Positions 1 through 11,583 of a stretch of DNA of 45,575 bases are shown here, piece after piece; position 1 is the first letter of the stretch, and every line of letters begins with the position of its first letter. Below the pieces are notes generated by a model, which had not been told where the DNA came from, ran no database searches, and saw nothing but the letters and a program-made list of their open reading frames with translations. The DNA comes from Sulfurospirillum sp. UBA12182. GTDB lineage: Bacteria; Campylobacterota; Campylobacteria; Campylobacterales; Sulfurospirillaceae. Both the position numbers and the translations under genes were made by a program. The stretch is from assembly GCA_002742765.1 (NCBI GenBank), contig DLUF01000066.1, positions 1-45,575 of the forward strand, written 5' to 3'.

Positions 1-1052
1 TTTTGAAGTTGTCTATCTAAAACTTTTCTATCCGTAATAACAATCACACTATTAAAAATGATTTTATCATCGCTGTCATGTAAAGAAGAGAGCCTGTAAG
101 CACACCAAGCAATTGAGTTACTTTTACCACTTCCCGCACTGTGCTGAATTAAGTAGTTTTGTCCTACTCCTTTTTCTTTTACATCTTTTACTATCTCTCT
201 TACGACATCTAGCTGATGATATCTAGGGAATATCATGTTCTCTTTAGTATATTTTTTACCACCTGATACAATCTCATCTTTTTGTAGATGTATAAATCTT
301 CCGATAATTTCAAGCCAACTATCTTTTTGTAAAACTTTTTCCCACAAATATGCTGTTTTGTATCCATTTTCATTTATTGGATTTCCTGCACCGTTATCAT
401 TTCCTAGGTTGAACGGCAGAAATCTTGTCTTTGTTCCATCTAGTTTTGTTGTTAGATACACTTCATCGCTATCAACTGCAAAATGAACCAATGCTCTTTT
501 TTTAAATGAAAATATTAACTCTTTAGCATCTCTATCATTCATATATTGCCATTTTGCATTTTTGACATTTTGACCAGTGAACTGATTTTTCAACTCCATC
601 GTAGCAACAGGCAAACCATTAATTGAGAGTACCAAGTCAAGTGAATTTTCATTTTTAAGGCTATATCTTACTTGCCTTGTAACAGTTAAAATATTTTTAT
701 TGTAAAGCTCAAGTAATTCTTCATTTTTTTCATTTTCAGGTTTAAAATAGCAAAGTTTAAATCGTACTCCATAATCAACTATACCATTTCTTAAAACATC
801 AAGCATACCCCTTAAATCTAACTCTTTATAAAGCCTTGCTGTTAGTTTGTTTTTTATCTCTTCACCATGATATTTTTCAAGTTTTTCCCATGAGCTTTTT
901 TGTGTATTTTGTAAAAACTCCAAAACCTTTTCTTTATCAAATGCTAAATCTTTATTAAAGGTTTGATTATCCCCTTCAACATATCCACCATTTTCACAAA
1001 GTGAAGAAATTATTGCACTTTCAAATGCATTTTCATTTAATATATTTGACAT
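1..1052 (-). CDS. hsdR: Type I restriction enzyme R subunit HsdR (N-terminal 350 residues, cut by window edge)
   Basis: This is the ATP-dependent DNA translocase and nuclease of a type I restriction complex. Reading the minus strand from ATG at 1052 gives an open frame to the window edge. A PD-(D/E)xK nuclease core is visible: Asp139 followed by the strand ending in MELKN (Glu153, Lys155). The helicase Walker A sequence HSAGSGKS follows at about 304-311, and the start of the next helicase strand (VITDRKVLDRQ) at about 338-348. HsdR proteins are usually near 1,000 residues, so about two thirds is missing from view; nothing seen suggests a broken gene. The ATG shares one base with the stop codon of the preceding gene (TAATG), so it is translated as the last gene of the hsdM-hsdS-cargo operon. 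Confidence 0.95.
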   Translation of the reverse strand, partial: MSNILNENAFESAIISSLCENGGYVEGDNQTFNKDLAFDKEKVLEFLQNTQKSSWEKLEKYHGEEIKNKLTARLYKELDLRGMLDVLRNGIVDYGVRFKLCYFKPENEKNEELLELYNKNILTVTRQVRYSLKNENSLDLVLSINGLPVATMELKNQFTGQNVKNAKWQYMNDRDAKELIFSFKKRALVHFAVDSDEVYLTTKLDGTKTRFLPFNLGNDNGAGNPINENGYKTAYLWEKVLQKDSWLEIIGRFIHLQKDEIVSGGKKYTKENMIFPRYHQLDVVREIVKDVKEKGVGQNYLIQHSAGSGKSNSIAWCAYRLSSLHDSDDKIIFNSVIVITDRKVLDRQLQ

Positions 1053-2023
1053 TATTCACCTACCTCACAATTTGCTTTAAAGTCCTTATAAGCCTTATCT
1101 CTAAAAATTAATTTTAATCTCTCTTTTTCTCTATCTGCTAAATCTTTCAAATAACCATCTTCATCATAACAAGTTGTAATAAATTCAAATTCTTTTAAAG
1201 TTGAAAAATCATCTAGTTTTATTTTTGTTAATATTTCATTATCGATGACTTCAAGAGTATTTGGGTCAAAATATCTCTCTTTGGGTTTATTGTGTTCCTC
1301 GAATTTTCTTCCTTGAAAATGAGGTTTATTTTGCCAATAAATTCCAAATAACTCAGAAGTACCTGAACGATAAATTTTGACAATTTGAGTAGATCCACCA
1401 ATCTCTCTAATTGATGGGTCTTGAGAAATATCAATTAAAACTCGAAGTGGCTCCATATCAACATTTGCACCAACTTCTTTTTTTTCTCGTTCTTCTTTTA
1501 ATTTTTGAGCTGCAATATCTTTTTTATCATTCGGATCAACAATAAATGCACATAAGCCATCTAATGAACATTTCTCTTGTTCTGTAGGAAGATATGCTTC
1601 TGTACTTTCATTGTAGCTAACTTCCCAAATTCTAAATCTATTTTCTCTCCAGCACCATCCACAAAATAAAAATCTCACTTCAGCTCTTAGCTTGTGTATA
1701 TTTTCACTTGGTATCTCATTGATGCTATTTTTTATCAAAACAGTAAAAAGCTCACTTATGTATTCTACAACTTCGATAAGAGGTGTGTAGTTATTTTTAA
1801 GTCTATTGTCAAGTTTTATAGAGCTAATAAGATTTAGTATCAGTGTATATGCTTTACCAGTAACTCCAACAAATGCAATCACACAATCGGTTCTTGGCAA
1901 TTCAAAAAGTTTTATACCATTTTCCCAACTCTCACCATTACCAGTAAATATAGAATCTGTAGCGACGATTAGCTCTTCATCTCCATCATTTTTTTGTCTA
2001 ACCCAAGCCATACACATACTCAT
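1052..2023 (-). CDS. Predicted proteasome-fold Ntn-hydrolase, cargo gene of the hsd operon
   Basis: I do not recognise a named family for this 323-residue protein. Its first 100 residues look like a 20S-proteasome/HslV-type Ntn-hydrolase. A first beta strand (residues 4-11) leads into a turn with Asp-Gly. An ATDS motif places Asp23 where proteasome Asp17 lies, and a GIKLFELP strand places Lys38 at the position of Lys33. A glycine-rich turn with a following helix (FVGVTGKAYTLI, 51-62) matches the GxGA...helix of beta subunits. Aligning on the Asp-Gly turn puts Cys4 opposite the nucleophile Thr1, preceded by Met-Ser-Met. Residues 160-185 are charged, and the C-terminal 200 residues are unrecognised. 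The ATG overlaps the previous stop (ATGA) and has AGGAG seven bases upstream. The fold call is inference from motif spacing. Confidence 0.6.
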   Translation of the reverse strand: MSMCMAWVRQKNDGDEELIVATDSIFTGNGESWENGIKLFELPRTDCVIAFVGVTGKAYTLILNLISSIKLDNRLKNNYTPLIEVVEYISELFTVLIKNSINEIPSENIHKLRAEVRFLFCGWCWRENRFRIWEVSYNESTEAYLPTEQEKCSLDGLCAFIVDPNDKKDIAAQKLKEEREKKEVGANVDMEPLRVLIDISQDPSIREIGGSTQIVKIYRSGTSELFGIYWQNKPHFQGRKFEEHNKPKERYFDPNTLEVIDNEILTKIKLDDFSTLKEFEFITTCYDEDGYLKDLADREKERLKLIFRDKAYKDFKANCEVGE

Positions 2024-2814
2024 AATCTGGCTCCTAATCGTTTATTAATCTCTTCTTTAAGAATTTTTTTATCAAAATCACCAAAATCTGGTAATGCTTT
2101 ATCGCTTAATGCCATAAGTCTTTTATATTTATTTCCTTTTGCAAACTTTGACAATTCATCAAAAATTGAAATGTTATAGAATTCGGCTTGTGGTGCTTCA
2201 TAACGATAATACATCATAGACATCGTTGATTCTGTTAGTTTATTATGGTTGTTTATAGCATATATGTTGACAAATTTTTTATTGTCATTTGATAATGCAA
2301 TATCAACTGGATATAAACTTTCACTATCGTATGCTTCTATTCCTTGAGAATAAAATTTGTATTTAACATCAAAATTATTTTTAATATATTCTTTTATAAT
2401 TTCTAAAAACTCTTTGATAACTATCTCTTTTTTCAAAAATATTAAATCTTGTAGCTTTATAAGTGCAGTGATATAATCCAAAACATCTTCTTGCCAATAA
2501 TTAGAACTCAAGTCAATTTTTTTAATATATTTAAACTCATTCTCATCAACACCATAAGTTTTTAAAATATTCATAGCTATATCAAGAGCATTTGATGTAG
2601 GATCATAAAAATTTTTATCAAAAAATCTATAAGTCAAAAGTTCATCATTTAGAACTAATGTTTTACTATCTTCAAGTTTTGCTACAAATGAAATAGGGTC
2701 ACTATCTAATCCACCAAAAGGTGTAGTGATTTTTGCTTTAAATCTATCCCTTGGACTGATTCTGATTCTATACTTATTACAAAATTCATCAAAAATATTA
2801 TTAATTTCCATCAT
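2020..2814 (-). CDS. DUF1828-like protein, cargo gene of the hsd operon
   Basis: This is a 264-residue soluble protein of unknown function. The N-terminal 85 residues carry the pattern I associate with DUF1828: an ITTPF motif, a D.I.F strand, then a hydrophobic stretch with LNDE and a following helix ending KTYGV. The C-terminal half has a region ending in a short basic tail and no membrane segments. A longer frame reaches 2835, but the start at 2814 is preferred: it overlaps the upstream stop as ATGA and has a strong AAAGGAG eight bases away. Four-base overlaps on both sides mean it is co-translated with the DUF6978-like protein and the Ntn-hydrolase-like protein, so the three probably act together. 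DUF1828 has no established biochemical role that I can name. Confidence 0.6.
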   Translation of the reverse strand: MMEINNIFDEFCNKYRIRISPRDRFKAKITTPFGGLDSDPISFVAKLEDSKTLVLNDELLTYRFFDKNFYDPTSNALDIAMNILKTYGVDENEFKYIKKIDLSSNYWQEDVLDYITALIKLQDLIFLKKEIVIKEFLEIIKEYIKNNFDVKYKFYSQGIEAYDSESLYPVDIALSNDNKKFVNIYAINNHNKLTESTMSMMYYRYEAPQAEFYNISIFDELSKFAKGNKYKRLMALSDKALPDFGDFDKKILKEEINKRLGARL

Positions 2815-3314
2815 GAGAATAAACTCCTTTGACAATCAAGCTTATAATCCAAACATATTGTTTTGCAAAATAATGTAACAAAGCATTTAAAATCTAAATT
2901 AATTAGTTTTTCTTCGCTTATATTTAGTACAAAAGCATCATATTTAAAGCCATCTTTTAAACAATCTTCACAGTACAAGTGTAGATGTAGCTCGTTTGCA
3001 ACTCTTTCTTTAAAAATCTCTTTTTTGCAATTTCTTCTATGTGCTTCATGAAAATCAAGTCGACAAATTCTAATATTATTTTTCATTAAAATAGCACTAT
3101 ATTCTGGAAATTCATCATCGTTGTTATGTTGCAATATTACTTTATAGTCACCATCAATATCTAGCTTTAAAGTATAAAACTGTGGATTATTTGGTTTTAG
3201 CTTCATTCTTCTATCGATGTCACTATCTTCCAATCTTCCACAGTTGTATGTTTTTGGTTCTTTAAGAATTTGTAAAATTTCTTCTTTTGTATAAATATTT
3301 TCAATGAGTTTCAT
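2811..3314 (-). CDS. DUF6978-like protein, first cargo gene after hsdS
   Basis: This 167-residue protein has no known function. A central block reads as beta strands followed by an RLDFHEAHRRN motif (about 101-111) and, about 20 residues later, HLHLYCEDC. This LRLD...HRN...HLHiY arrangement resembles what I recall of DUF6978; the assignment is from memory and unverified. A CxxC pair (CEDC) sits in the second motif, which could be structural but has no partner pair, so a zinc site is not supported. It has no signal peptide or membrane segment. The gene overlaps the 3' end of hsdS by 14 bases with a GAGGGG ribosome site just upstream, and its stop overlaps the DUF1828-like start. It is therefore physically embedded in the restriction-modification operon. 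Confidence 0.55.
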   Translation of the reverse strand: MKLIENIYTKEEILQILKEPKTYNCGRLEDSDIDRRMKLKPNNPQFYTLKLDIDGDYKVILQHNNDDEFPEYSAILMKNNIRICRLDFHEAHRRNCKKEIFKERVANELHLHLYCEDCLKDGFKYDAFVLNISEEKLINLDFKCFVTLFCKTICLDYKLDCQRSLFS

Positions 3315-4638
3315 TCCATCCCCTCACATCTATTTTTCCCGTAATAACTTCATAAATAAGTGTTTCTTTATACTCTTTTAAAAGTTCGATTTCATCTTTT
3401 ATAATTTGTACTGTTTCATTTGTTTCAGCTATTTTTTTATCCAAATATTCAACTATTTGTTCTTGTTCTTCAATCAAAGGACATGGTATTCGTAAAGATT
3501 TGATAATTTCTTGACTTATATTTGGCTGTCCACCACCATAACCTAAATCTATAATATATTTTTTATTTGCAATAAACCAATAATATATATATCTTAAAGT
3601 AAAATAATCACTTTCAGCTAAAACACAACAAGCTTGATTAACACAAGCATCAAAGGTAGTTATACCTATTTTTCCTATAGTTGCACCATACATTGCTATT
3701 ACCAATGAATATTTTGGATAAATTTTTAATGCACTATTATCTTCAACGGCAAATGTTGAAACAGTTTTATTTACATCGAGAAGATAATCATTATTTAAAT
3801 CACCTGTATTAATCCAAGGTATAGTTCCATTTGTATAATAAGCACTATTTGATGTTAATGGTGTCGTTCCACTTCCAATAGTATTAAAGCTATGGCTTAT
3901 TTTTCTTAAGCTCCATTGTTCAGGTATTTCACCTATCCACTTAACTTTACTATCTTTTATAGAAACATTAGGATTTAACCCTTTTGTTACTGCATTTGAA
4001 ATCGTTAGCTCTTTTTCTTGCTCCAAAAGAGAGATGAGATTTACTTTGTCGGCTATAAGTTCTTCTATCTCAGTAGTTTTTTTATCAAGATAGTTTGCGA
4101 TTAGTTTTTGCTCATCAATATCAGGATAAGCAAAAATAAAATCTTCAAAGACATTTTGATAAAGATGAAGTATAGTAGAACCTCTTGAAGTGAAATCAAA
4201 AAACTTTTTAAATTCAAAAGAATTCAAAATCCAATACATAAAAGGTGTTATATAAACTCCATTTAAAGGTCTTGTAACAAATATTCCACTATTTAAACAT
4301 GCTGGTTTATCTAAATTTTTTACAAGTGCTGTTTTACCAATAGTTCCGTCTTTTGTTATGAGTAAATCATTCTCTTTTAACTGAATAAAAGGGTCAACTT
4401 CATATCTTTCTTGATCAATGTAATAACATTTCTCCCAGTCAACAAACCCATCTTTAAAATCTGTTCCTGTCACAAGATACGAATAACCATCTATTAAAAA
4501 TTCACTAGATGTTAATCCATTCCATCCAACACGACCTTTAACATAAGTAGAATATTTTATTTTAATTGTTTGCCAATGTTCAGGTATCTCACCTATCCAT
4601 TCAACATTTGAAGATTTGTATCGCTCGTATCTTTTCAC
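3301..4638 (-). CDS. hsdS: Type I restriction-modification specificity subunit HsdS
   Basis: The specificity subunit binds the two halves of the target sequence and holds HsdM and HsdR. The 445-residue protein shows the expected duplicated architecture. EWIGEIPEHW (about 13-22) opens the first target-recognition domain, and KWIGEIPEQW (about 233-242) opens the second. Each domain ends in a helical spacer of similar sequence (EQKLIANYLDKKTTEIEEL, and EEQEQIVEYLDKKIAE). Length matches the family, so both recognition domains are present and the system should be functional. It begins with GTG overlapping the hsdM stop as GTGA. The target sequence cannot be read from the protein alone. Confidence 0.93.
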   Translation of the reverse strand: MKRYERYKSSNVEWIGEIPEHWQTIKIKYSTYVKGRVGWNGLTSSEFLIDGYSYLVTGTDFKDGFVDWEKCYYIDQERYEVDPFIQLKENDLLITKDGTIGKTALVKNLDKPACLNSGIFVTRPLNGVYITPFMYWILNSFEFKKFFDFTSRGSTILHLYQNVFEDFIFAYPDIDEQKLIANYLDKKTTEIEELIADKVNLISLLEQEKELTISNAVTKGLNPNVSIKDSKVKWIGEIPEQWSLRKISHSFNTIGSGTTPLTSNSAYYTNGTIPWINTGDLNNDYLLDVNKTVSTFAVEDNSALKIYPKYSLVIAMYGATIGKIGITTFDACVNQACCVLAESDYFTLRYIYYWFIANKKYIIDLGYGGGQPNISQEIIKSLRIPCPLIEEQEQIVEYLDKKIAETNETVQIIKDEIELLKEYKETLIYEVITGKIDVRGWNETH

Positions 4639-6383
4639 GATATTACCTCTTTGAGTTTACCCATTGTTTTTTCTTCAAGTTTTAAAATATCTGCTTTGAC
4701 CTCTTCTAAGGTTCGAAGGGTTTTAAATGTATAAAACTCTTTGCTGAAGTTTATTTCATAACCTATCTTTGTTTTGCTCTCATCTATCCAAGCATCACTT
4801 ACATAAGGTAATACTTCCTCTTTGAAATACTCATTGATATCTTTTAAAAGAGGGATATTTTCAGAGTCTCTAAGAGAACCGTCAGCTTTTGGATTACCAT
4901 TTCTATCTGTAATTATTTCACCATTTTCATCTCTTTGTGGTCGCTCAACTGTAACTTTGTAATACCCAAAATACTCATTTGGCAAAATCTTACAAAACTC
5001 ATTTTCTTTAAAATCACCATAAAGATTTGCTATATGAACTATTTGCTCTGGAGTAATAGTTTTTCTTTTATTACCAAGACTTCTATCCATTTTTTTCCAA
5101 AATGGTGTCTCTTTTATGTCTTTATCATCAACAGAACCAGAAGCATTTATAAGCTGGATTTTCCCTTTTCTATTTTTGTTTTTGTTATTTGTAAGTATCC
5201 AGATATATGTTGAAATACCAGTATTATAAAAAAGTTGATCAGGTAAAGCAATAATAGTTTCAAGTAGATCATTTTCAATAATCCACTTTCTTATTTCACT
5301 CTCACCACTTCCAGCGGTTCCACTAAATAGAGGTGAACCGTTAAATACTATAGCTATTCGGCTACCGTTATCTGTATTTTTTATTTTTGATACCATGTGT
5401 TGTAAAAAAAGCAATGAACCATCATTGATTCTAGGAAGTCCAGCACCAAATCTACCATCATAACCTTGTTTTTCATGTTTATCTTTGATGATTTTACTTG
5501 CTTTTTTCCAGTCCACTCCAAAAGGTGGATTTGAAAGCATATAATCAAACTTTTCCTCTTTTAGCCCATCTACTGTGAATGTATTTCCAAATTTTATATT
5601 TGAAGGATTTTGTCCTTTGATTAGCATTTCAGATTTACAAATTGCATAAGATTCTGGATTTATCTCTTGTCCAAAAAGCTCTAATTTAGCTTTGCTATTG
5701 AGTTCATTTACATATTCATCTGCAATAGAGAGCATCCCTCCTGTACCACAAGCCGGGTCATATACTGTTTTTACAATACCTTCTTTAGCAAGTACTTCAC
5801 TATCATCAATAAACAAAATATCTACCATTAGTCTGATAACTTCTCTTGGAGTAAAGTGTTCTCCAGCTGTTTCATTTGAAGCGTCGGCAAATTTTCTAAT
5901 AAGCTCTTCAAAGATATAACCCATCTCTTGAGGAGTAATGTCTTTAAGATACTCTACTGCTGATAAATCTTTTACGATTTGATAGAGTAAGTCTGCACTA
6001 TCAAGCTTTTCTATTTGATCATCGAAACTAAAATAAGAGATAATATCTCTTACACTTGCAGAAAACCCGTTGATATAATTTCTTAGATTTGAGGCAATAT
6101 TATTTGGATCATCTAAAAGGTTTTTAAAATCAAATTTTGATTTGTTGTAAAAATTTTGTTTTGCTTTTTTCTCCAATGCAATGTCTCTTGCTTTTTCTGA
6201 AAGCGTTTCAACTTTCGGTAAAAAGTCCAAGACTTCTTTTTTTGTAGGTTCTAAAATAGCATCAAGTCTTCTAAGTACTGTAAAAGGTAAAATAACTTTC
6301 CCGTAATCTGATTGTTTATAATCACCTCTTAAGAGGTCTGCTATTTTCCAAATATCATTCGCTTTTTCTTTGAAATTCATCAC
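4635..6383 (-). CDS. hsdM: Type I DNA N6-adenine methyltransferase subunit HsdM
   Basis: HsdM methylates adenine in the target to protect host DNA and is an obligate partner for restriction. The 582-residue protein has the N-terminal helical HsdM_N region (about 5-145), then the N6-MTase domain. The SAM-binding motif I, DPACGTGGM, is at about 209-217 and the catalytic motif IV, NPPFG, at 285-289. Both are intact. The C-terminal region ends in a helical tail typical of HsdM. Translation may start at GTG 6383 or ATG 6380; an AAGG lies 7 and 10 bases away respectively. It is the first gene of the minus-strand operon hsdM-hsdS-DUF6978-DUF1828-Ntn-hsdR, and all junctions overlap by 1 to 25 bases or less. 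Confidence 0.95.
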   Translation of the reverse strand: MMNFKEKANDIWKIADLLRGDYKQSDYGKVILPFTVLRRLDAILEPTKKEVLDFLPKVETLSEKARDIALEKKAKQNFYNKSKFDFKNLLDDPNNIASNLRNYINGFSASVRDIISYFSFDDQIEKLDSADLLYQIVKDLSAVEYLKDITPQEMGYIFEELIRKFADASNETAGEHFTPREVIRLMVDILFIDDSEVLAKEGIVKTVYDPACGTGGMLSIADEYVNELNSKAKLELFGQEINPESYAICKSEMLIKGQNPSNIKFGNTFTVDGLKEEKFDYMLSNPPFGVDWKKASKIIKDKHEKQGYDGRFGAGLPRINDGSLLFLQHMVSKIKNTDNGSRIAIVFNGSPLFSGTAGSGESEIRKWIIENDLLETIIALPDQLFYNTGISTYIWILTNNKNKNRKGKIQLINASGSVDDKDIKETPFWKKMDRSLGNKRKTITPEQIVHIANLYGDFKENEFCKILPNEYFGYYKVTVERPQRDENGEIITDRNGNPKADGSLRDSENIPLLKDINEYFKEEVLPYVSDAWIDESKTKIGYEINFSKEFYTFKTLRTLEEVKADILKLEEKTMGKLKEVIS

Positions 6384-7183: not shown

Positions 7184-7435
7184 ATGCCTAAAAAAATTAT
7201 CCCGATTGACTTTCCAAAGCAACCATTTGAGATCACAAAAGGGTTTCTAGGTGAGTACATAAAAGCAAAAAGGACACAATCAAATCTTACAATGCATCAA
7301 GCTGCAATGTTGTGTAATGTACCTGTTGATGTTTTTACAAAACTTGAAAACTCAAAAGGTGGAGTGACTCTTGATAGCTTTTTAAAAGTAGCAAATGGTT
7401 TGGGACTTGATATTAGATTTGGAACTGAGCAATGA
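7184..7435 (+). CDS. HipB-like XRE-family regulator/antitoxin
   Basis: This 83-residue protein carries a helix-turn-helix of the XRE (Cro/C1) class at about residues 22-75: a helix with RTQSNLTMHQAAMLC, a turn, then VPVDVFTKLENSKG and a SFLKVANGLGL helix. HipB-like proteins dimerise, bind operator palindromes upstream of their own genes and neutralise the HipA kinase. The stop overlaps the next start by four bases (ATGA), the usual antitoxin-toxin arrangement. Three palindromic sites lie directly upstream. A weak ribosome site (GTGGAG) precedes the ATG. The role as antitoxin depends on the neighbour being an active toxin, which is uncertain (see the next gene). Confidence 0.8.
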   Translation: MPKKIIPIDFPKQPFEITKGFLGEYIKAKRTQSNLTMHQAAMLCNVPVDVFTKLENSKGGVTLDSFLKVANGLGLDIRFGTEQ

Positions 7436-8325
7436 ACCAAAATATTAAAAATGGATATCAAGAAGTTTCAAAAAAAGAGATCATCGCCAAAAGGCTGAAT
7501 AATCTCACCATAAAAGATGGCAAATATTTCATAGGATCACTATCTACTCATAAAGTCAAATTTGATGAAGATGATAAATTCTTAGCTCTCAATGAATATT
7601 TTTGCACCCGCTTAGCACAAATTGCAAATTTGCAAACTATGGATTGTATCCTTGAAAATTTTGGTAGCAAAAAAGTGTTGGTGCTAAAACGATTCGATAG
7701 GGAGTTAATAGAAAGCGATGAGTCTTTTGAGATAGTTGAAAAAGAAATAATCGATGGATATCAGCTTGTAAACTTAGGAGCAAATCAAAAAGTAGAAAAA
7801 CGAGACATCTCATTTGAGTTGCTCTATAGCAAGGGGATATATTTTTGCAAAACAAAAGCAGTGGCAAAATTAGAACTTCTAAAATGGGCGATTTTAAATC
7901 TTATCATCTCAAACTATGAAGCAGATGTGACAAATATATCGTTTTTTAGCGCTCACAACGGGATTGAGATAGCCCCTTTTTGTGAGTTGAAAAGCTATGA
8001 TGTTTATGATGACATTCCAAAACAGTTCGTATTTACATATGGCGATAGCTTTATAAGTGAAGATTTAAGCACGATGAGCCTTGTAAATTTTTGTAAAAAT
8101 ATCGATATCCATCCTCGACTTTTCAATCAAGAGTTTGCAAATATGCTTAAAACTATCAAAAAAGAGATAAGAAATCTGCACTTAGAATTTTATGCAAATA
8201 CCTCACAAAAAGAGCAAGATTTTTTAAAAAAATTAATGCAAAGTATCGAAAACAACATACTCAGATATGAAAATATGATGAGTGATTTTTTAGAAATCTA
8301 TCGTGAATATAAAAATATTTTATAA
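7432..8325 (+). CDS. HipA-like kinase-fold protein with altered catalytic residues
   Basis: This 297-residue protein resembles the core and C-terminal lobes of HipA serine kinases. LALNEYFCTRLAQIANLQ (about 49-66) followed by VLVLKRFDREL (about 82-92) matches the HipA core; a region LLKWAILNLIISN leads into the active site. There the canonical N-x-D-x-H-x-x-N loop reads N-Y-E-A-D-V-T-N, so the catalytic Asp is Glu and the His is Asp. The metal-binding Asp of LAPxYDL is also Glu (IAPFCEL). The Gly-rich GVQxK segment at the front and the N-terminal subdomain of about 100 residues are absent; HipT of three-gene HipBST systems also lacks the latter, but no HipS gene is present. It may be a pseudokinase, a kinase with shifted chemistry, or a decaying toxin. 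Confidence 0.7.
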   Translation: MNQNIKNGYQEVSKKEIIAKRLNNLTIKDGKYFIGSLSTHKVKFDEDDKFLALNEYFCTRLAQIANLQTMDCILENFGSKKVLVLKRFDRELIESDESFEIVEKEIIDGYQLVNLGANQKVEKRDISFELLYSKGIYFCKTKAVAKLELLKWAILNLIISNYEADVTNISFFSAHNGIEIAPFCELKSYDVYDDIPKQFVFTYGDSFISEDLSTMSLVNFCKNIDIHPRLFNQEFANMLKTIKKEIRNLHLEFYANTSQKEQDFLKKLMQSIENNILRYENMMSDFLEIYREYKNIL

Positions 8326-10213: not shown

Positions 10214-10459
10214 ATGACTTCACAAGAATATTTTGAATTTAAAAATCTATTATTAGAGCAAAAAGAGCTTTTGAAGATGATGGTTCCTAAAAAAGCAAGT
10301 GTAAGTTACCTTGCTGAAGCCACTGGAAAATCAAGGCAGGCTATCAGACAATTTTTACTAAGCAACTATGTTCCTGAAGTTGATTATTGGCTTGAAGGTG
10401 GTAAAATGTTTGTGTCGCAAAAAACAGCCGTTGCAATTTTGACGAGGAGTTCAAAATGA
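10214..10459 (+). CDS. Small helix-turn-helix protein, probable excisionase/regulator
   Basis: This 81-residue protein has an N-terminal helix (about 5-24) and a helix-turn-helix (about 29-53) with the recognition-helix sequence GKSRQAIRQFLLSN, followed by a small beta wing with VDYWLEGGKMFVSQ. Its size, fold and place immediately before an integrase fit an AlpA/Xis-like recombination directionality factor or a regulator of integrase expression. GGGAG lies eight bases before the ATG, and the stop overlaps the integrase start as ATGA, so the two are translationally coupled. Excisionase is an inference from context; the protein has no recognisable family signature beyond the HTH. Confidence 0.65.
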   Translation: MTSQEYFEFKNLLLEQKELLKMMVPKKASVSYLAEATGKSRQAIRQFLLSNYVPEVDYWLEGGKMFVSQKTAVAILTRSSK

Positions 10460-11583
10460 AAGGTGACGGTGTATTTAAGGTGCGTGCGGGTAAGATTTAT
10501 GTTCATGGTACGATAAACGGTATTTTTTATAGAAAATCAACAGGTAGAACTGCTACGAAACTCTCACTTGCTTGGATGAAAAAACAAAATCCTATGCAGG
10601 TTTTAGAAGAGATTTTGCAAAACGAAAACCAAAGAATCGAATCTACAACATTCGAATCATTTGGTTATGAAGTGGTTAACTTAACAAAATCAAATCGAGG
10701 CATCTCTACTCAAAATGATTGGAAAAGTCTGTTTAAAAACAAGATTTTACCATATTTTAAACACTATAGATTTGAAGATGTAAGACCTATTGATGTGGTC
10801 AACTTCTTAGAATCACATAGAGGCAAACTAAGTAATGATAGGGTAAAAAAGCTAAAGTATATTTTAAGAACCATATTTGCTTATGCTGAGGAGAATGGAT
10901 TGATGGTCAAAAATCCCGTCACTTCTATCTCAGTATCGCAAGTAAATCTAAAATATAAGCCTAAAAACACTCCATCGTACACAACCGATGAGATAGCAAA
11001 GATTTTAAAACATGCCAAAGGTTGGATGAAAGTGTTTTTGGATCTGTCATTTACTTTGGGGCTTCGAACTGGTGAAACTATAGGATTAAAATGGGAAGAT
11101 TTTGATTTTGAAACAGGTAAGCTTCACCTAAAAAGGTCAATAAGTAAAAGTCAAATCACTGAACAAAACAGTGAACAAGAGAGCAATAAAAACCATTTTA
11201 GGGTATTGCAACTTTTTCCACAGTCATTGGAATTGCTTAAAAAATATTATGAGTTTAGACCTGATGATGAGTGGCTTTTTATCAATAAAGATGGCAATAA
11301 CTATGGAAGTTCGCAGATGATTATACGAACCCATTTTAAACCATTTTTAAAAGAGATAGGTGTTCCATATAAAACTTTGTACGCAACTAGAAGATCTTAT
11401 GCATCTGTTATGAAGTATGCAGGGGAAAATCTAGGAGTGATCCAAAAAACGATGGGACATGCCCAGGGTTCTAAGATAACTGAGAAGCACTACATAAGTC
11501 CAAAAGTGCTCAATCTTAAACATGAACAAGCTATTGCACAAAGACAAGAAAATATGTTTAAAACTATGATATTTGGGGCCTAA
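10456..11583 (+). CDS. Tyrosine-type site-specific integrase
   Basis: This 375-residue recombinase inserts and excises the element. The N-terminus (1-60) has beta strands rich in Lys and Arg like an arm-type DNA-binding domain. A SAM-like core-binding domain (about 75-170) follows, then the catalytic domain. Catalytic residues seen are Arg in GLRTGETIGLKW, the beta-hairpin Lys in LHLKRS, Arg in YATRRSYAS (the HxxR histidine is Tyr, as in many phage integrases), GH in KTMGHAQ, and the nucleophile Tyr in TEKHYI near residue 353. All essential positions are therefore present and the gene looks intact. It reads towards the tRNA-Leu fragment at 11698-11753, and repeated TGCACA words between the two may be its arm sites. 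Confidence 0.92.
   Translation: MKGDGVFKVRAGKIYVHGTINGIFYRKSTGRTATKLSLAWMKKQNPMQVLEEILQNENQRIESTTFESFGYEVVNLTKSNRGISTQNDWKSLFKNKILPYFKHYRFEDVRPIDVVNFLESHRGKLSNDRVKKLKYILRTIFAYAEENGLMVKNPVTSISVSQVNLKYKPKNTPSYTTDEIAKILKHAKGWMKVFLDLSFTLGLRTGETIGLKWEDFDFETGKLHLKRSISKSQITEQNSEQESNKNHFRVLQLFPQSLELLKKYYEFRPDDEWLFINKDGNNYGSSQMIIRTHFKPFLKEIGVPYKTLYATRRSYASVMKYAGENLGVIQKTMGHAQGSKITEKHYISPKVLNLKHEQAIAQRQENMFKTMIFGA

Follow-up and report, generated by a model that had tools for sequence, protein, structure and literature searches.

A proteasome-fold hydrolase clade confined to type I restriction-modification operons, a candidate accessory of a type IC-like lineage

Type I restriction-modification (R-M) enzymes need protection against unmodified sites in the DNA of their host. 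In the case of EcoKI, the ClpXP protease degrades translocating HsdR (PMC4231737), while the type IC enzyme EcoR124I undergoes restriction alleviation without ClpXP, by a mechanism described as unresolved (PMC3874165). Accessory genes embedded in type I operons are of a known kind; the type IC operon EcoprrI contains prrC, which codes for a latent anticodon nuclease that the type I enzyme keeps sequestered until infection with phage T4 sets it free (PMC3874165). The proteasome-like protein family, as surveyed by Fuchs, Alva and Lupas in 2021, consists of HslV, Anbu, BPH, connectase and 22 uncharacterised groups, and no informative genomic contexts were reported for the new groups (PMC8665760). 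Here we analyze a type I R-M operon of Sulfurospirillum sp. UBA12182 located on a 45,575-nucleotide stretch of DNA (contig DLUF01000066.1; referred to in its entirety as the window), in which a gene for a 323-amino-acid protein, hereafter NTN, is found between hsdS and hsdR. With a rough probability of 40%, we read NTN as a proteasome-family N-terminal Ser/Thr hydrolase that serves as a specialised, co-inherited accessory of one type IC-like R-M lineage and acts on the R-M complex. A proteasome-family hydrolase confined to type I operons is new in the literature that we searched.

Searched alone against Pfam, NCBIfam, PADLOC and PHROGs, the NTN sequence matched no family (one Pfam match with an E-value of 0.06 is at chance level), and a phmmer search against the PDB yielded chance-level matches only. 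When its AlphaFold2 model [predicted local distance difference test (pLDDT) 85; predicted template modelling score (pTM) 0.76] was compared with the PDB by Foldseek, each of the best 50 matches was a 20S proteasome subunit (probability 1.00; E from 1e-8), at an overall sequence identity to proteases of about 10-15%. In the viral library, phage proteins that carry a proteasome beta or HslV annotation rank among the top matches. The original prediction, made from the DNA sequence, had guessed that this protein is an N-terminal nucleophile (Ntn) hydrolase and had named structure comparison as the check; AlphaFold2 and Foldseek confirmed the guess, and as modelled NTN is a proteasome-fold hydrolase. 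At the level of the family, a profile built from 21 relatives had an HslV chain as its best match among the PDB sequences (E 0.004), aligned through the motif FAGxTAxA, and one family member matches the Pfam Proteasome family (E 9e-4).

For proteasome-like proteins, a Thr1/Asp17/Lys33/Gly47 scheme has been described (PMC8665760). The NTN model presents an N-terminal strand with a Ser residue, an Asp after strand 2, a Lys before the next strand and a Gly just before the first long helix; this order of elements fits the scheme, and the predicted active site is S2, D23, K38 and G53. Residue 2 is either Thr or Ser in 21 of 21 sequences (Ser in the window and in genome G058 of the same class, Thr in all others). 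D23, K38 and G53 are invariant in the alignment of the 21 relatives, whose motifs resemble those of HslV and of proteasome beta subunits.

Homologues were collected by tblastn on plasmids and by scanning genome contigs with one degenerate pattern, which requires a MEP motif so that homologues lacking this motif are missed. Every full-length homologue that includes the C-terminal extension sits between hsdS and hsdR (10 of 10: the window, G058 and eight new loci). According to their record titles, the new loci belong to Flavobacterium (two), Algoriphagus, two cyanobacteria, a Deltaproteobacterium, Methylobacter and an unclassified bacterium, and the extended homologues hence span several phyla (Bacteroidota genera, cyanobacteria, Deltaproteobacteria/Myxococcota, Methylobacter); two of the eight lie on short contigs on which hsdS and hsdR are visible and hsdM is not. 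None of the 19 loci of shorter relatives matches the hsd queries. With the two query loci left out, linkage to hsd is found for 8/8 extended vs. 0/19 short-form loci, a distribution with a Fisher probability of about 4e-7 that is descriptive only, because the loci share ancestry and ten loci from a single clade do not count as independent events. A branch with 100/100 support separates the hsd-linked set from the rest, and the C-terminal extension (about residues 240-323 of NTN) is specific to this set. We therefore rejected the notion that the whole hydrolase family is tied to hsd; the linkage is confined to the C-terminally extended clade.

NTN distances correlate with HsdR distances (r = 0.80; p = 5e-5), with the pair HsdR-HsdM giving r = 0.92 for comparison, and the ratio of non-synonymous to synonymous substitutions (dN/dS) of NTN is 0.03-0.17; NTN is therefore under purifying selection. 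Other cargo around NTN varies from locus to locus while NTN itself persists, and the type I R-M operon of this lineage moves between phyla. A cyanobacterial sample yielded the seed genome only and no further extended homologue; the clade is therefore rare, and the sample is small. As judged from these sequence comparisons, the confinement of the clade suggests a dedicated partnership between a protein-cutting and a DNA-cutting enzyme.

Two features of individual hsd-linked loci were recorded along the way. In two Bacteroidota operons, a small open reading frame (ORF; 108-111 codons, no known Pfam family) that is alike between the two lies directly upstream of the hydrolase gene (L015 9671-9997; L017 9665-10000). 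In G058 (L014 9681-13168), hsdS is in pieces split by transposase-like ORFs, the hydrolase and hsdR frames are intact, and a 301-amino-acid ORF, called Abi_2-like by reading alone, is placed between hsdM and hsdS.

The short-form relatives are solitary genes on plasmids and chromosomes, several of them beside tyrosine integrases, and no neighbour is common to three or more of the 19 loci. The relatives detected by tblastn on plasmids stem from Klebsiella, Agrobacterium, Rhodococcus and Lactiplantibacillus, to which an E. coli record is added. On two Klebsiella plasmids (L007 5963-10834; L009 4739-10811), the hydrolase gene lies just downstream of two dynamin-like GTPase genes on the same strand, one of which is annotated as LeoA/HP0731 family; the L009 annotation splits the hydrolase into two pieces next to an ISKpn26 transposase. 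In E. coli, the hydrolase together with a tyrosine integrase is present in 126 of 5,426 genomes, on chromosomes only (L104 9038-10576; L011; L105). The copies read have a frame that is shortened (annotated as 576 bases) or broken by IS1, and the E. coli form may be decaying.

On the minus strand of the window, the gene order is hsdM, hsdS, the genes for proteins of 167, 264 and 323 amino acids, and hsdR, with every junction overlapping:

4635..6383 (-), hsdM, N6-adenine methyltransferase subunit (Pfam and PADLOC matches)
3301..4638 (-), hsdS, specificity subunit with two target-recognition domains (Pfam and PADLOC matches)
2811..3314 (-), 167-amino-acid gene, divergent DUF6978 and probable PDC-M24A partner, variable cargo (weak family match; order and overlap as in prophage pairs)
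2020..2814 (-), 264-amino-acid DUF1828 gene, divergent PDC-M24B, variable cargo (Pfam, PADLOC, phrog_5059 at E 6e-12)
1052..2023 (-), NTN, predicted proteasome-fold Ntn-hydrolase with an M1-S2 start and the predicted active site S2/D23/K38/G53 (structure prediction and alignment)
3..1052 (-), hsdR, first 350 amino acids with HSDR_N and SWI2/SNF2 motor, cut by the window edge (Pfam and PADLOC matches)

The three ORFs proposed earlier between hsdS and hsdR are thus present at these positions. That their junctions overlap also held, while the claimed range of 1-25 bases shrinks to 1-14 with the most plausible starts: the overlap is 14 bases between hsdS and the 167-amino-acid gene, 4 bases between the latter and the 264-amino-acid gene when translation starts at the ATG at 2814 (25 bases only with the TTG at 2835), 4 bases between the 264- and 323-amino-acid genes and 1 base between the latter and hsdR. 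A Shine-Dalgarno-like AGGAG precedes both the ATG at 2814 and that at 2023. From the overlapping junctions we infer that the genes of the operon may be co-translated.

HsdM, HsdS and HsdR of the type I R-M system were all identified by Pfam and PADLOC. HsdR matches in the PDB are EcoR124I/II chains only (type IC), and HsdM matches several families. The window ends at a contig break: the assembly breaks within hsdR at about amino acids 351-368 (window position 1 and start of contig C37; L111), the remainder of HsdR (amino acids 369-995) sits on C37, and the truncation of hsdR at the window end is not demonstrably biological. Downstream of hsdR, C37 carries more large ORFs of no assigned function. 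On its other side, the hsd operon is adjoined by a HipB-like helix-turn-helix and HipA_C-domain gene pair and by a phage-type integrase gene (7184-8325 and 10456-11583, both on the plus strand), whose presence nearby suggests an integrated island as the location of the operon.

The original prediction had also taken the 167-, 264- and 323-amino-acid genes for one module. This did not survive the search for co-occurrence, since the pair of smaller genes is found in 0 of the 9 other hydrolase-containing hsd operons and such pairs exist elsewhere without a hydrolase. We rejected the trio as a single module; because pair and hydrolase occur apart, the trio is two separate things, and the recurring unit is the hydrolase plus hsd. 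Regarding the family calls, the assignment of the 264-amino-acid protein as DUF1828-like stood (Pfam E 4e-4, slightly below the curated cut-off; PADLOC PDC-M24B, PDLC04539, E 3e-8 over residues 2-197, and E 1.4e-7 in the genome-level search). The 167-amino-acid protein resembles DUF6978 weakly, far under the cut-off (Pfam E 0.012; 16.3 vs. 29.6 bits), and hhalign gave a weak p of 0.008 with only the motifs RxDF...H and HLHxY in common. No relative of the window proteins P0001 or P0002 was present among phage records, and scans of viral contigs with P0001, P0002 and P0003 found none either. A single-sequence structure prediction for P0002 reached a pLDDT of 36, and we claim no fold for the DUF1828 and DUF6978 proteins.

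PDC-M24 is a candidate defence pair in PADLOC, in which M24A corresponds to DUF6978 and M24B to DUF1828/1829; our literature search found no paper on it, and DUF1828 and DUF6978 were mentioned only in passing. Within the window's class, three genomes (G141, G038, G032) have clear pairs matching both subunits, among phage-type genes and without a hydrolase; two of these pairs, by our reading, adjoin an S24-type repressor gene. The window pair shares with these the gene order, the overlap and the approximate sizes. It differs in being very divergent, with the A subunit below every threshold, and in lying inside an hsd operon instead of adjoining a phage-type repressor. By sequence, the 167- and 264-amino-acid genes are probably a PDC-M24 relative that is unrelated to the hydrolase and occupies the cargo slot.

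How might NTN serve the R-M system? Removal of the initiator Met would expose Ser or Thr at position 2 as the nucleophile, and the extra C-terminal segment might dock the hydrolase on the R-M complex, where it would cut one of the subunits, most likely HsdR. Restriction would be turned down in this way when host DNA has unmodified sites, whether the operon has just entered a new host or repair and recombination have taken place; NTN would thus do the job that ClpXP does for EcoKI, with the difference that it is encoded in the operon. Among solved structures HsdR is closest to EcoR124I/II, and the operon crosses phyla; an operon-borne protease acting on HsdR would fit. Tentatively, the hydrolase can be taken further as a dedicated and integral part of a system of four components, R-M-P, that would couple restriction to operon-encoded proteolysis, be it for self-protection against HsdR or, as a defence arm, against target proteins.

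A number of observations weigh against this proposal. Bacteroidota relatives whose HsdR is 58-76% identical to that of Algoriphagus lack NTN and have other genes upstream of hsdR; two of them (G531 and G519, HsdR 75-76% identical) presumably still restrict. The slot between hsdS and hsdR generally carries unlinked cargo, and at some loci other genes stand between NTN and hsdR. The operon contains no AAA+ unfoldase; proteolysis, assembly and binding by NTN are predicted activities; and a single capture followed by co-transfer would equally explain the linkage and the distance correlation.

The relatives without NTN also define its status in the operon. Because close HsdR relatives do without it, NTN is not required, and we rejected it as an obligate subunit of the HsdR lineage; NTN is an accessory of the restriction operon. 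On the HsdR tree, its presence requires two changes, e.g., one gain and one loss. Among 397 genomes of the window's class, HsdR proteins at least 60% identical to the lineage occur only in the window's genome and in G058, both of which have NTN; it is absent from the 54 other genomes of this sample in which HsdR matches were found. In the NTN-less Bacteroidota relatives, the slot is taken by Fic-type, RhuM-type, REP-transposase-like, nuclease-like and toxin-antitoxin-like genes, mostly named by reading ORFs; PIN and nuclease genes are also among the cargo of relatives. Pfam-confirmed cargo in NTN-positive operons comprises SIR2, GmrSD, SatD/DUF3307 and RhuM, with GmrSD placed between hsdM and hsdS. 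The earlier expectation that the slot hosts unrelated defence genes was thereby borne out in relatives for SIR2, Fic, RhuM, PIN and nuclease genes, with GmrSD in the same operon in a different gap.

This diversity of cargo speaks for an alternative that we consider unlikely, namely that NTN is a self-sufficient single-gene protease, for defence or otherwise, which this type I operon captured once and has carried along since, with no action of the protease on the R-M proteins. The solitary short forms, several by integrases and without a shared neighbour, and the presumed location of the window operon on an island that also bears an integrase gene and a HipA-type pair are in keeping with it. 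However, our scan found the extended clade in no other place, NTN remains in place where the surrounding cargo differs, and its C-terminal extension is peculiar to the clade. We judge it improbable that NTN is a latent effector in the manner of PrrC, held inactive on the R-M complex until a phage inhibits restriction and then set free to degrade phage proteins or essential ones. Such a role would suit its place in an operon equivalent to EcoprrI with an EcoR124I-like HsdR, but the hydrolase ORF of G058 is intact despite the fragmented hsdS, which is awkward if the complete enzyme alone keeps the hydrolase silent, and the solitary relatives have no conserved silencing partner. Use of the fold as a structural subunit, amidase, or transpeptidase/ligase is a very improbable reading, for which one can cite the non-protease connectase of the proteasome-like family (PMC8665760) and the low identity to proteases, and against whose structural variant, although not against ligase or amidase chemistry, the invariant catalytic positions count.

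From a clade that is restricted to a single kind of operon, an orphan protease would gain a concrete partner that can be tested. Action of NTN on HsdR, if it occurs, could explain ClpXP-independent alleviation in type IC-like systems (PMC3874165); as a defence arm, NTN would extend the set of effectors found inside restriction operons by a protease of the proteasome type. In comparison with ClpXP-mediated alleviation of EcoKI, the proposed purpose, proteolysis of HsdR, is alike, but ClpXP has an unfoldase and serves general housekeeping, while NTN is operon-encoded, has no known unfoldase, and its activity is hypothetical. With HslVU, NTN shares the fold and the FAGxTAxA motif; it differs in that the window protein matches no HslV family (0 NCBIfam families) and that its operon, in which hsdR and the DUF1828 gene are its neighbours, encodes neither HslU nor another AAA+ partner. 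NTN has the beta-type fold and the N-terminal Thr/Ser, Asp, Lys and Gly positions of the proteasome-like family at large, from which the hsd-linked clade is set apart by its own C-terminal extension and fixed context. None of the three proteins between hsdS and hsdR matches an anticodon nuclease (PrrC or RloC) in Pfam, PADLOC or NCBIfam, and PrrC belongs to another protein family with another target. Nevertheless, the type I-linked anticodon nucleases PrrC/EcoprrI and RloC resemble NTN in their arrangement: in both cases an extra gene is embedded in a type I hsd operon, and R-M-linked as well as solitary relatives exist (PMC3874165, PMC2610378).

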